Shown in pieces: positions 5,737 to 12,981 of a DNA stretch of 37,855 bases. Position numbers and translations under genes: made by a program. This stretch comes from Leisingera sp. JC1. Lineage in GTDB: Bacteria > Pseudomonadota > Alphaproteobacteria > Rhodobacterales > Rhodobacteraceae. The stretch's first letter is position 1; each line of letters starts with the position of its first letter. A model generated the notes under the pieces. It was given only the letters and a program-made list of their open reading frames with translations. It did no database searches and had not been told where the DNA came from. The stretch lies in contig NZ_LYUZ01000024.1 of the NCBI RefSeq assembly GCF_001679925.1, positions 1,015 to 38,869 of the forward strand. The letters are read 5' to 3'.

Positions 5737-8010
<2,274 letters not shown>

Positions 8011-8173
8011 CTGGCGCTCCTCGGAAAGGGTATTGTTTAGCGTTAAACCATTTTTTCTGCCGGAAACATAGCCCAAACTGACGCAAACGGACGCGGCGGC
8101 AGCACAGGCGGCGGGTTCTTGCATATACCTTGCCGCAGGGTCACTGTCCTGCCAACAGATCAGGGAGTGAAAA

Positions 8174-9259
8174 ATGAGCGAAACAATCGCCGAGATCCGC
8201 CTGCCGACGGATGAGCTGCGCAACGATATTCCGTTTTATACCAAGGTTTTGGGTATGAAGATGGACATGATCTACCCGGCGGATGATCCGCGCACCGCGG
8301 TGTTTTCCGGCCACGGGCTGCGGCTGCGGGTTGAGAAAGGCGCAGAGGAATCCCCCGGCACTATCCGCATTCTGACTGAAGATCCTGATGGATTTGCCGA
8401 AGGACAGCGCCGCCTGACTGCGCCCAACGGAACGGAAATCGAGATCGAGGAGCGCCACCCGCCGATGGTGATGCCGGAAACGGTGCACAGCTTCGTGGTC
8501 CGCCGCCTCAAGGATCAGGCCCCCTGGATCATCGGCCGCGCGGGTATGCATTACCGCGACCTGGTGCCGGACCGGCTGGGCGGGTCGATCATCGCCAGCC
8601 ACATCCGCATTCCCGATGGAGGCCCGGTCCCGGATATGGTGCATTTCCACCGCGTCGGCTTTCAGCTGATCTTCTGCATCCACGGCTGGGTCGATGTGGT
8701 CTATGAGGATCAGGGCGAGAAGATGCGTCTGACGGCGGGCGACTGCTTTATCCAGCCGCCGGAAATCCGCCACCGGGTGCTGGAGGCCAGCGACAACGTG
8801 CAGGTGATCGAGATCGGCGTCCCGGCAGAGCATGTGACCGAGATCGACCACCAGATGACACTGCCGACACCTCACCACCGGCCCGAACGGGAATGGCAGG
8901 GCCAGCGGTTTGTCTATAACAAGGCGGAAGGCGCCGCGTGGGGTCTGTTCCGCCTGCCGGGCTATATCTGCCGCGACACCACGATTGCGGCAAACACGAA
9001 GGGCGTCGCAGGCGTGCAGGTGGTGCGCCGGGGCGACGGCGATCCGCAATGGGCGGCGCATGACACCGACATCCACTTTACCTTCGTGATGAACGGCGAA
9101 GTGACGCTGGAAGGGGAAGGCCGCGAGCCTTACCAGCTGGAGCAGGGCGACGCCTTCGTGATCCCGCCAGGCATGAAAACCCGCCTCAGCGCGCCGTCGG
9201 ACGATGTGGAATTGCTGGAAGTGACGCTGCCGGGAGTGTTCAACACCACGCTGGGTTGA
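8174..9259 (+). CDS. VOC-like plus double-cupin fusion protein
   Basis: A 361-residue protein with three small metal-binding-type folds. Residues about 1-95 look like one glyoxalase/VOC half (LRNDIPFYTKVLGMKMDM, then GTEIEIEERH). About 150-220 is a cupin with VHFHRVGFQ (His157, His159), GDCFIQPPEIRHRV (His200). About 265-355 is a second cupin (HDTDIHFTFVMNGEV, QGDAFVIPPGMKTRL). A GGGAGTG ribosome site precedes the ATG. The substrate is unknown; a dioxygenase, isomerase or sensor-like role are all possible. It is a monocistronic gene divergent from maeB. No signal peptide or membrane segment is seen, so it is probably cytoplasmic. Confidence 0.8.
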   Translation: MSETIAEIRLPTDELRNDIPFYTKVLGMKMDMIYPADDPRTAVFSGHGLRLRVEKGAEESPGTIRILTEDPDGFAEGQRRLTAPNGTEIEIEERHPPMVMPETVHSFVVRRLKDQAPWIIGRAGMHYRDLVPDRLGGSIIASHIRIPDGGPVPDMVHFHRVGFQLIFCIHGWVDVVYEDQGEKMRLTAGDCFIQPPEIRHRVLEASDNVQVIEIGVPAEHVTEIDHQMTLPTPHHRPEREWQGQRFVYNKAEGAAWGLFRLPGYICRDTTIAANTKGVAGVQVVRRGDGDPQWAAHDTDIHFTFVMNGEVTLEGEGREPYQLEQGDAFVIPPGMKTRLSAPSDDVELLEVTLPGVFNTTLG

Positions 9260-9331
9260 ACTCAAACCAGAGCAAAGAACTGCACTGGGGGGCTTCCGCT
9301 CTCCAGAACAATTCAGCTATCCTGCGGCATC

Positions 9332-9347
9332 TTGACCAAATGATCAA
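9332..9347 (+). promoter_or_regulatory. RutR-like operator upstream of cdd
   Basis: TTGACCAAATGATCAA differs by one base from the E. coli RutR consensus TTGACCA-N2-TGGTCAA. It lies 17 bases before the cdd start. A weak -10-like TATCCT at 9318-9323 would put the transcription start inside the site, which fits repression. A second copy precedes upp at 12269. Confidence 0.6.
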
Positions 9348-9364
9348 AAAAACGGGGAATCGCC

Positions 9365-9757
9365 ATGAGCCTCAAAGCCGCCGCTGCCGCTGTCCGTGAA
9401 AACGCCCACGCGCCTTATTCCAACTTCAAGGTCGGCGCCGCTGTCCGCTCCTCCTCCGGCCAGATCTATGTGGGCTGCAATGTCGAAAACGTCGCCTATC
9501 CCGAAGGTACATGTGCCGAGGCTGGCGCCATCGCCTCCATGGTGGCTGCGGGGGAGAAAGAACTGGCCGAGGTCTATGTGATCGCCGATTGCCCCACGCC
9601 GATTACGCCCTGCGGCGGTTGCCGCCAGAAGATCAAGGAATTTGCCAGCGGAGACGCCAAGGTCATCATGGCCACCACAGATGGCGACGAGCAGGAAACC
9701 ACCATCGGCGCTCTGCTGCCTGGGGCCTTCGACGCGGACCATATGGAGCGCAGCTGA
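9365..9757 (+). CDS. cdd: Cytidine deaminase
   Basis: Zinc hydrolase converting cytidine or deoxycytidine to uridine or deoxyuridine; 130 residues, the short tetrameric type. Zinc and catalytic residues are visible in NVENVAYPEGTCAEAGAI (Cys50, Glu52) and PCGGCRQKI (Cys83, Cys86). It is the first gene of a nucleoside salvage operon: its TGA overlaps the ATG of deoA by one base (TGATG), implying translational coupling. A RutR-like site sits in its leader, so it is probably induced by pyrimidine bases. Confidence 0.96.
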   Translation: MSLKAAAAAVRENAHAPYSNFKVGAAVRSSSGQIYVGCNVENVAYPEGTCAEAGAIASMVAAGEKELAEVYVIADCPTPITPCGGCRQKIKEFASGDAKVIMATTDGDEQETTIGALLPGAFDADHMERS

Positions 9758-11061
9758 TGGACGCCCGCGCCATCAACGCCTGCCTGCGCCGCGGTGAAAC
9801 GCCGGGCGAGGACGCGCTGCGCTGGTTTGCCGAGGGCCTGGCCAGCGGCGCCGTCTCAGACGCGCAGGCCGGGGCCTTTGCCATGGCAGTCTGCCTGCAG
9901 GGCCTCAGCGTCGAAGGACGTCGCGCCCTGACGCTGGCGATGCGCGACACCGGCGATGTGCTGACGTGGGACCTGGACGGTCCGGTGCTGGACAAGCATT
10001 CCACCGGCGGTGTGGGCGATTGCGTCTCGCTGCTGCTGGCGCCTGCGCTGGCGGCCTGCGGGGCTTATGTGCCGATGATTTCGGGGCGCGGGCTGGGCCA
10101 TACCGGCGGGACGCTGGACAAGCTGGAGGCGATCCCCGGCGTCTCCACCAGCGTCAGCGAAGACCGCCTGCGCCGGATGATGCAGGACATGGGCTGCGCC
10201 GTTGTTGGCGCCACCGCGCAGATTGCGCCTGCGGACAAGCGGCTTTATGCGATCCGCGACGTAACCGCGACGGTGGAAAGCCTCGACCTGATCACCGCCT
10301 CGATCCTGTCCAAGAAACTGGCGGCCTCTCCGGATGCACTGGTGCTGGATGTAAAGATCGGCTCCGGTGCCTTCATGAAGACCGCCGGTGACGCCCGCGC
10401 GCTGGCGCAATCACTGTGCGATACCGCAAATGCGGCGGGCTGCAAGACTTCCGCGCTGATCACCGACATGAACCAGCCGCTGGCACCAGCCCTCGGCAAC
10501 GCGCTGGAAGTGGCAGAGGTGATGCGGGTGCTGACCGGCGGCGCATCCGGGCCGCTGGCAGAGATCACCGCAATTCTGGGCGGCGAGCTGCTGGTACTCG
10601 CAGGCCTCGCAGCGGATGCGGAGGAGGGAGCGGCAAAAATAACCGCAACCCTCACCGATGGCCGCGCGGCGGAGCGTTTTGCCAAGATGATTGCTGCCAT
10701 GGGCGGACCTGCGGACTTTGCCGCAAAATGGCAGGATCACCTGCCTGGCGCGGAAGTGGTGCGCGAGGTAAAGGCGCCCGCTGCCGGGCATGCCGCAGCC
10801 ATGAACGGTGAGGCGCTTGGCCTGGCGGTTGTTGCCCTCGGCGGCGGCCGGATGGTTGAAAACGACCGCATTCACCCCGGTGTCGGTATTTCGGACATTG
10901 TCCGCCTGGGCCAGCAGGTCGGGGCAGGGGACACGCTTGCGCGCATCCACGCCGCCAGCGATGATGCAGCAGACATGGCAGAGGCTGCGTTCCTGGCTGC
11001 CATCGCCATCGGCGACGCGCCGGACGACCTTCCGCCGCTGGTTCACGAAAGGATTTCCTGA
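9757..11061 (+). CDS. deoA: Thymidine phosphorylase
   Basis: Phosphorolyses thymidine or deoxyuridine to the base and 2-deoxyribose-1-phosphate; 434 residues, normal for bacterial DeoA. The family signature SGRGLGHTGGTLDKLEAI is present, as is DKHSTGGVGDCVSLLLAP, the phosphate-binding loop, and the all-alpha N-terminal segment. The ATG at 9757 shares its A with the cdd stop, and the frame upstream of it lies inside cdd. The stop TGA overlaps the deoB ATG in the same way. Within the operon its product feeds phosphopentomutase directly. Confidence 0.96.
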   Translation: MDARAINACLRRGETPGEDALRWFAEGLASGAVSDAQAGAFAMAVCLQGLSVEGRRALTLAMRDTGDVLTWDLDGPVLDKHSTGGVGDCVSLLLAPALAACGAYVPMISGRGLGHTGGTLDKLEAIPGVSTSVSEDRLRRMMQDMGCAVVGATAQIAPADKRLYAIRDVTATVESLDLITASILSKKLAASPDALVLDVKIGSGAFMKTAGDARALAQSLCDTANAAGCKTSALITDMNQPLAPALGNALEVAEVMRVLTGGASGPLAEITAILGGELLVLAGLAADAEEGAAKITATLTDGRAAERFAKMIAAMGGPADFAAKWQDHLPGAEVVREVKAPAAGHAAAMNGEALGLAVVALGGGRMVENDRIHPGVGISDIVRLGQQVGAGDTLARIHAASDDAADMAEAAFLAAIAIGDAPDDLPPLVHERIS

Positions 11062-12272
11062 TGCCCCGTGCCTTCCTTGTGGTGATGGATTCCGTTGGTA
11101 TCGGCGGCGCGCCGGATGCCGGGACCTTCTTCAACGGCGATCTGCCAGACCTCGGTGCTAACACGCTGGCCCATATCGTGCAGGCCTGTGCCGCTGGCCA
11201 GGCAGAGGAGGGCCGCAGCGGCCCGTTGAACGTGCCGAACATGGAGCGCCTCGGCCTGGGTGCCGCAATGCGGCTCGCGTCCTCTGTGCCGTTTCCGGGC
11301 CTGGATGACGCACCGCAGGGCCGCTGGGGCTGCGCCGCCGAACTCAGCCGCGGCAAGGACACGCCGTCGGGCCATTGGGAACTGGCCGGGCTGCCGGTGC
11401 CCTGGGACTGGCACTACTTCCCCGATCAGGCGCCGTCTTTCCCCGAAGACCTCTCTGCCTTTGTCGCTGAGCAGGCGGGCACTGATGGCATATTGGGCAA
11501 TTGCCACGCCTCTGGCACCGTGATCCTCGATGATCTGGGCGCGGAACACATGCGGACCGGCAGGCCGATCTGCTACACCTCCGCCGACAGCGTGTTCCAG
11601 ATTGCCGCGCATGAAGAGACATTCGGCCTCGACCGCCTTCTGAAGCTCTGCGAGACCGTCGCCCCGCGCCTTCATGCAATGAAAGTGGGCCGGGTCATCG
11701 CCCGCCCGTTCTTGGGCTCCGCGAAGGAGGGCTTCACCCGCACCACCAACCGCCGCGACTTTGCGATCACCCCGCCGGCGCCGGTGCTGACGAACTGGGT
11801 GCAGGGTGCGGGCGGCAAGGTCCACGCCATTGGCAAGATCGGCGACATCTTCTCCATGACCGGTATCGACACCCTGAAAAAAGGCGCCGATGCCCATCTG
11901 ATGAAGCACCTGATCGACGCGGTGGAGACGGCTGAGGACGGCAGCCTGACTTTCGCCAATTTCGTCGAGTTCGACACCCTGTATGGCCACACCCGCGACA
12001 TCTCCGGCTATGCAAGGGCGCTGGAGTGGTTTGACGCCGAACTGGGCCGCCTTCTGCCGCGCTTGCGGCCGGGCGATATGCTGGTGCTGACCGCCGATCA
12101 CGGCAATGACCCCAGCTGGCCCGGCTCTGACCACACCCGCGAACAGGTGCCGGTACTGATCGCAGGCCTTGACGCGGGCCCCGTCGGGCAGGTCAAATTC
12201 GCCGATGTGGGCGCCTCTATCGCGGCCCATCTGGATGTGCCTGCGCAAGGTCCCGGCAAAAGCTTTCTTTGA
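11061..12272 (+). CDS. deoB: Phosphopentomutase
   Basis: Interconverts (deoxy)ribose-1-phosphate and (deoxy)ribose-5-phosphate; a manganese enzyme of the alkaline phosphatase superfamily with 403 residues. Key parts are visible: VVMDSVGIGGAPDA at the N-terminus (metal Asp), GKDTPSGHWELAG (the phosphorylated Thr region), and C-terminal LTADHGNDPSWPGSDHTRE with the metal His and Asp residues. Its ATG overlaps the deoA stop by one base. The last codons overlap a RutR-like operator for the next gene, upp. No deoC is found in the window, so deoxyribose-5-phosphate aldolase would be elsewhere. Confidence 0.96.
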   Translation: MPRAFLVVMDSVGIGGAPDAGTFFNGDLPDLGANTLAHIVQACAAGQAEEGRSGPLNVPNMERLGLGAAMRLASSVPFPGLDDAPQGRWGCAAELSRGKDTPSGHWELAGLPVPWDWHYFPDQAPSFPEDLSAFVAEQAGTDGILGNCHASGTVILDDLGAEHMRTGRPICYTSADSVFQIAAHEETFGLDRLLKLCETVAPRLHAMKVGRVIARPFLGSAKEGFTRTTNRRDFAITPPAPVLTNWVQGAGGKVHAIGKIGDIFSMTGIDTLKKGADAHLMKHLIDAVETAEDGSLTFANFVEFDTLYGHTRDISGYARALEWFDAELGRLLPRLRPGDMLVLTADHGNDPSWPGSDHTREQVPVLIAGLDAGPVGQVKFADVGASIAAHLDVPAQGPGKSFL

Positions 12273-12284
12273 CCCCATGGTCAA
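12269..12284 (+). promoter_or_regulatory. RutR-like operator upstream of upp, overlapping the deoB stop
   Basis: TTGACCCCATGGTCAA differs by one base from TTGACCA-N2-TGGTCAA and includes the deoB stop codon. The flanking bases extend the inverted repeat to 7 bp per arm. It is 64 bases upstream of the upp start. The aligned 18-mer is identical to the cdd site at 14 of 18 positions. Confidence 0.6.
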
Positions 12285-12348
12285 AACACGCTTGCCTGCC
12301 GCGGCCAAGCCCGTAAAAGCGCGGAAAAGCAAACTTTAGGAGTGCCCC

Positions 12349-12981
12349 ATGACCGACCACCTGACCGTTGTTGATCACCCGCTTGTGCAGCACAAGCTGA
12401 CCCTGATGCGGGACAAGGGCACCTCCACCGCGGGGTTCCGCCGCCTGCTGCGCGAGATTACCCAGCTTCTGGCCTATGAGATCACCCGCGAAATGCCGCT
12501 GACCACCACCAGCATCGAAACCCCGATGGAGGAGATGGAGGCGCCGATCCTCGCTGGCAAGAAGCTGGCGCTGGTGTCGATCCTGCGCGCGGGCAACGGC
12601 ATGCTGGACGGGGTGCTGGAGTTGATCCCTTCGGCCCGCGTCGGATTTGTCGGCCTTTACCGTGACGAGGAAACCCTGGAGCCGGTGCAGTACTACTTCA
12701 AGGCGCCCGAGGGCCTGAAGGACCGGCTGGTGATTGCCGTGGATCCCATGCTCGCCACCGGAAACAGCTCTGCTGCGGCCATCGACCTGCTGAAGGAGGC
12801 CGGCGCCAACAACATCCGCTTCCTGTGCCTGCTGGCCTCGCCCGAAGGCGTCGAGCGCATGAAGCAGGCCCACCCGGATGTGCCGATCGTGACCGCCTCC
12901 CTGGACCGCGAGCTGAACAAGAAGGGATATATTCTTCCAGGCCTCGGCGATGCCGGCGACCGGATGTTCGGCACCAAGTGA
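12349..12981 (+). CDS. upp: Uracil phosphoribosyltransferase
   Basis: Salvages uracil to UMP using PRPP; 210 residues, the standard length. The PRPP-binding loop [16 protein letters not shown] and the uracil-binding C-terminus [15 protein letters not shown] are clear, as is [14 protein letters not shown] near residue 80. TTTAGGAG sits about 7 bases before the ATG. It follows deoB by 76 bases and has its own candidate operator, so it may be both read through from and separately initiated after the cdd operon. Cytoplasmic. Confidence 0.96.

Follow-up and report, generated by a model that had tools for sequence, protein, structure and literature searches.

Predicted RutR-type operators upstream of cdd and upp suggest a lineage-limited pyrimidine regulon in Leisingera and its relatives

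Two similar 16-base palindromes, one upstream of cdd and one upstream of upp, raise the question of whether a single regulator could control nucleoside breakdown and uracil salvage together in Leisingera sp. JC1. Both lie in the window, by which we mean the whole stretch of 37,855 nucleotides that was analysed (Table 1). A preliminary description made from the DNA letters had noted TTGACCAAATGATCAA upstream of cdd, at a distance of 17 bases, and TTGACCCCATGGTCAA upstream of upp, at 64 bases; each had one mismatch to TTGACCANNTGGTCAA (TTGACCA-N2-TGGTCAA), which we take to be the consensus of Escherichia coli RutR. Both sequences were found at these distances with a single mismatch each, and the 14 of 18 matching positions that had been counted between them were reproduced when one flanking base was taken on each side (13 of the 16 core bases are alike). 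The salvage role proposed for cdd and upp agreed with the NCBIfam matches, which identified cdd, deoA, deoB and upp. The first three genes overlap by one base at each junction and are followed by a gap of 76 bases before upp. Farther upstream in the window (5737–8223, minus strand), one protein combines malic enzyme domains with a phosphate acetyl/butyryltransferase domain, a fusion that is an ordinary known arrangement.

Table 1. Predicted operators, promoter-like elements and adjoining genes, numbered by position in the window.
Feature	Position	Strand	Evidence or remark
cdd promoter -10-like element TATCCT	9318..9323	+	Conserved columns, inspection
RutR-type operator (predicted), cdd	9332..9347	+	TTGACCAAATGATCAA; motif match, same place in relatives
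cdd, cytidine deaminase	9365..9757	+	NF004064, 4.3e-41 (NCBIfam)
deoA, thymidine phosphorylase	9757..11061	+	NF004490, 1.4e-169 (NCBIfam)
deoB, phosphopentomutase	11061..12272	+	NF003766, 2.1e-144 (NCBIfam)
RutR-type operator (predicted), upp	12269..12284	+	TTGACCCCATGGTCAA; left arm over deoB stop TGA 12270-12272
upp promoter-like CTTGCC-N17-TAAAAG	12291..12319	+	Inspection; similar pair in L011 and L012 without operator
upp, uracil phosphoribosyltransferase	12349..12981	+	NF001097, 5.4e-88 (NCBIfam)

A RutR homologue, which the preliminary description had left to be looked for in the genome, was found in the form of one RutR-type TetR regulator. TetR_C_3 (PF08362) matched a single protein (E 2.2e-45; 155.9 bits, cut-off 25), the gene for which (C24:94879-95490) lies on the same contig ~85 kb from cdd. 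This gene is convergent with preA and divergent from hyuC (here a hydantoinase/carbamoylase-family amidase gene), which is followed by a dihydropyrimidinase gene, so that its neighbours are those of the reductive pre/hyd pathway. A perfect operator, TTGACCAGTTGGTCAA, with no mismatch, was present at C24:95625 between the regulator gene and hyuC. The closest solved structures were those of E. coli RutR (3loc, 4jyk and 4xk4; 1.2e-51), with which the regulator shares 85 of 203 aligned residues (42% identity). Among the residues named in PMC10891134, all five uracil contacts (W77, Y97, W167, Q171 and Q179, in E. coli numbers) and likewise lysines K52 and K62 are kept, and 77 relatives had no other residue at the five contact columns, gaps and one X aside. 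The regulator scored under both NCBIfam cut-offs for RutR (TIGR03613, 212.7 vs 368 bits; PRK15008, 192.4 vs 230) and RutA (TIGR03612) gave no match in the genome, which is 99.61% complete; we thus refer to a RutR-type regulator rather than to a RutR equivalog. The carA locus (L301) carried no operator at ≤2 mismatches. From these features, together with the scans and comparisons below, both 16-mers very probably serve as binding sites of a repressor that senses uracil, and we put the probability that they are operators of this single RutR-type TetR regulator, with repression relieved by uracil, at roughly 0.88.

The motif occurred more often than expected by chance. At ≤3 mismatches the window contained four matches, compared with 0.91 on average in 100 shuffles, only one of which gave as many, and the cdd and upp sites were its only one-mismatch matches. 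Across the whole genome (5.19 Mb) there were six places at ≤1 mismatch, two of them the cdd and upp sites, against three for the backwards motif, and 53 at ≤2 mismatches against 25 for the backwards motif, a control count that takes genic and intergenic places together. Of the 53, 45 were located relative to genes (cdd, upp and 43 others), and 12 of these were intergenic by a simple codon-usage gene call; the 12 include the rutR/hyuC site, which the script had put inside an over-long rutR frame. The expectation that such hits would gather upstream of pyrimidine genes was borne out at six of the 12, namely cdd, upp, rutR/hyuC, deoC, uraA (here an NCS2-family nucleobase permease gene with a score under the cut-off for uracil permease) and an NMT1-type binding-protein gene that adjoins ABC permease genes downstream of hydA. 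It did not hold for the other six, which have no known pyrimidine link and lie in an EamA gene region, at alaS/DUF1330, at a luxR-type gene, at a HemL/GntE-like aminotransferase gene, at an ectB-like gene and between unassigned frames.

For the class III aminotransferase with a two-mismatch site, identification as a beta-alanine transaminase was weighed and rejected, since the NCBIfam models that fit it best are of the HemL and GntE types. Nucleoside transporter (Bmp) genes were likewise set aside as targets, with three-mismatch matches only, in two loci. One-mismatch palindromes with no evident pyrimidine link were seen at L087 2026-2041 (G000:C81:213425), beside alaS/DUF1330, and at L086 2039-2054 (G000:C79:66738), beside an EamA-type transporter gene.

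Conservation was examined in relatives collected by a deoB scan, which gave 80 named loci (L045 was left out of the site counts). Within 300 bases of cdd, a site with ≤2 mismatches was found in 33 of 76 loci, 28 of these at 14–18 bases before the start; at ≤3 mismatches, 30 of 76 had one at 10–20 bases and 29 of those at 14–18, counts that are not independent because many rows are close kin. At upp, 10 of 77 loci carried a site with ≤2 mismatches. The cdd total leaves out L014, L044 and L066 (no match or too little upstream DNA) and the upp total L066 and L081 (no match). The reversed motif, a control that leaves out the cdd region of L014, was found at ≤2 mismatches in 0 of 78 cdd regions and 0 of 78 upp regions. 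All 20 Ruegeria-named loci had CTGACCANNTGATCAA before cdd, one of them in the form CTGACCAGATGATAAA instead. The arms of the cdd site are nearly invariant and its flanks variable. Mean pairwise identity was 0.82 in the operator and 0.51 outside it at cdd (31 rows), and 0.76 relative to 0.51 at upp (11 rows), figures that are descriptive rather than proof because the rows were picked for carrying the site.

The sites fell mainly into two groups of relatives. On the deoB tree, site labels assigned at ≤3 mismatches required 12 changes vs 35.9 in shuffles; a well-supported group of Ruegeria and kin (22 rows) had the cdd site throughout, a well-supported Leisingera/Phaeobacter/Roseobacter group (20 rows) included four rows without any site, and 34 of the 38 remaining rows had none. 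Relatives thus conserve the 16-mer ahead of cdd and upp, as the preliminary description had supposed, although in part of the family only: at ≤2 mismatches the cdd site was absent from 43 of 76 loci and the upp site from 67 of 77. A strict cdd-site pattern that included the first cdd codons was found in 2 of 149 genomes sampled evenly across the family, the genome studied here being one of the two. The regulator, in contrast, was present in 77 of 79 genomes, the two without it (L014 and L052) both being metagenome assemblies. Together these counts indicate that targeting of cdd and upp is mainly a feature of one part of the family, and the two sites appear to be largely confined to its Leisingera/Phaeobacter/Ruegeria part. 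Co-occurrence of the regulator and the cdd site was dropped as a test since a regulator in 77 of 79 genomes left no contrast. One record, L008 (JAHVJD010000002.1, titled Nocardioides marinus DP1N28-1), was roseobacter-like in its deoB (84% identical) and its regulator (89%) and had the gene order and operators of the window's genome; the organism name on it seems to be wrong.

At upp, the left arm of the site lies over the deoB stop codon (CTT TGA CC), and conservation there is for that reason partly coding. It could be that cdd alone has a genuine operator and that the upp site, which would not be bound, derives mainly from the end of deoB, with TGA supplying TTGA and a right arm arising by chance. 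The best conserved 16-column windows of the alignment do fall on the deoB end, over which the left arm lies, and the close relatives L011 and L012 have a similar promoter pair but lack the operator. Against this, a right arm of GGTCAA or GATCAA was found in 9 of 12 loci, which were rows picked for having an upp site (≤3 mismatches, no more than 130 bases away). Furthermore, in Roseobacter SK209-2-6 (L009) deoB ends farther upstream and the full operator, TTGACCAGAAGATCAA, is still found before CTTGCC, which argues for selection on the whole operator. By the same definition, the upp operator was present in 11 of 28 loci with upp ≤200 bases after deoB and in 1 of 49 with at least 983 bases between the two genes (Fisher P 2.9e-5, kinship ignored). 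We regard a by-product origin of the upp site as improbable.

Sites of the same family were also found at other genes of pyrimidine metabolism. An operator with ≤2 mismatches to either motif form preceded the regulator's own gene in 69 of 77 relatives, although the one counted in L048, 376 bases away, could be a fortuitous match in the next gene; the remaining eight have a tandem second regulator gene, with operators (≤2 mismatches) before the first gene of the pair. Upstream of preT (the gene before preA, named by its place, since its NCBIfam matches are glutamate-synthase-type and under cut-offs), TTTACC-N4-TGATAAA-type sites with ≤2 mismatches were found 51–82 bases away in 30 of 31 loci, and at deoC TTGTCCA-type sites were found in 22 of 30 at ≤2 mismatches and in three more at 3. 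The uraA site was present in two of five loci (own genome included in all three sets), and reversed-motif controls at preT, deoC and uraA gave 0 each. The site of the NMT1-type binding-protein gene was seen in 4 of 17 loci at ≤2 mismatches and in two more at 3. The claim of a shared regulon in this lineage is accordingly supported by the regulator, the sites, their conservation and the motif at preT and deoC, for binding that is predicted; on the same sequence evidence, a lineage-limited RutR-type regulon containing cdd-deoA-deoB and upp is supported.

These further sites also bear on whether some other regulator that reads TTGAC...GTCAA, such as an FNR/CRP-type protein, uses the palindromes. 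TTGAC half-sites are common to several regulator families. However, FNR-type sites have four bases between their arms, relative to six here, and 16-mers of the same family precede the regulator's own gene as well as hyuC and preT; use by such a protein is very unlikely. A role for the palindromes as hairpins in leader RNA rather than as operators in DNA is scarcely credible: the upp copy is able to form a 7-pair hairpin, but the cdd leader gave no fold on the palindrome (z 0.76), the C/A mismatch in the arms (GACC with GATC) would break the pair in 28 of 30 relatives, the window had no Rfam match at 9100-12600, and the motif stands at various distances from various genes.

Variants of this arrangement were observed around the regulator gene. 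Beside the main gene, a second RutR-type gene, 34–40% identical to the regulator of the window's genome, was found in L126, L156-L159, L163 and L167-L169 (Shimia, Pelagimonas, Loktanella, a Roseobacter assembly and others). In L157 the two genes are ~1.5 kb from each other, and in all these loci the gap to hyuC holds two operators, 29–34 bases apart, and not one. In L177 and L180-L184 (Thalassobius, Sulfitobacter, Salipiger, Lutimaribacter and Thalassovita) the operator in the rutR/hyuC gap reads TTTACCANNTGGTAAA, with one position changed symmetrically, and 12 of the 69 scored operators are closer to this form. Residues near the recognition helix also differ in the TTTACCANNTGGTAAA class (e.g. 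P55 to D in 11 of 16), a comparison confounded by kinship. Slightly upstream of the deoC operator, L218, L221, L226 and L228 have a GAATTATTCGCA-type inverted repeat, which to us is reminiscent of iron-regulator boxes.

The position of each operator relative to its promoter bears on the direction of control. Scans with consensus promoters found none at cdd or upp, and all promoter elements named here were read by eye from conserved columns. At cdd, the TATCCT block lies 8 bases before the operator, and at hyuC a conserved CTTGAC...TGATAGCGTGAG block passes straight into the operator, with a -10-like block and a geometry like that of cdd. This geometry would put the operator at hyuC and cdd on or beside the transcription start, and a dimer bound there would obstruct polymerase. 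The upp operator ends 6 bases short of a conserved CTTGCC, which is followed, 17 bases on, by TAAAAG or CATAAG, and at deoC the operator lies farther upstream of a similar CTTGCC element. The upp operator thus seems to stand upstream of its promoter, which is not the classical position for a repressor, and the sign of the regulator at upp is uncertain because of this position and the overlap with the deoB stop. Repression at all operators, relieved by uracil, is the plain reading and probably the right one, although at upp and deoC the geometry would also allow a different sign. It is conceivable, though we consider it unlikely, that the signs are opposite, such that the regulator blocks cdd-deoAB and the degradation genes and helps upp and deoC when uracil is scarce, with the upp operator also acting as a roadblock to deoB read-through that arose as the deoB-upp stretch shrank. 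If this were the case, a single uracil signal would decide between salvage and degradation at their branch point.

Under the plain reading of repression throughout, a regulator dimer would occupy both operators when uracil is lacking. At cdd, the dimer would sit at the expected transcription start and block cdd-deoA-deoB; at upp its position would be immediately ahead of the presumed -35 element, and it would most likely lower transcription there too. When nucleosides or uracil arrive, uracil, as the presumed effector, would bind the regulator and release it from DNA. Nucleoside breakdown (cdd, deoA, deoB and deoC) and uracil salvage (upp) would then be switched on jointly, and the same release would turn on reductive uracil degradation through preTA, hydA and the carbamoylase-type amidase.

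Such a regulon would connect the breakdown and salvage of nucleosides with the sensing of uracil in a marine bacterial group, and it makes a concrete prediction of about seven promoters. It would also be one in which nearly all the examined relatives keep the regulator while individual targets are gained and lost, and in which one operator makes use of a neighbouring stop codon. Literature searches for RutR together with uracil phosphoribosyltransferase and cytidine deaminase, or with thymidine phosphorylase, found no paper, and none on RutR in this group was found by title or abstract besides PMC5343134; prior publication is still possible in both cases.

In terms of known systems, the control proposed here is a known type that is extended rather than a new type. 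According to PMC5343134, RutR regulons have been described across Proteobacteria (68 genomes in 13 groups, with 10.9 per genome in its table), are labelled pyrimidine catabolism and show taxon-specific motif changes. PMC10891134 states that RutR binds a palindrome of ~16 bp, that rut and carAB carry sites and that uracil releases the protein. In E. coli K-12 we found TTGACCATTTGGTCCA in the carA leader (one mismatch) and TGGACTAAACGGTCAA in the rutA-rutR gap (three mismatches). The Leisingera regulator thus resembles E. coli RutR in protein family by sequence, in its uracil contacts and in a 16-base palindrome that the E. coli carA site matches at all but one position. It is unlike it in its identity of 42%, its scores under the NCBIfam cut-offs and a genome without a RutA match or a carA site; whereas the E. 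coli sites are at carAB and rutA/rutR, those predicted here are at preT, hyuC, cdd, upp and deoC.
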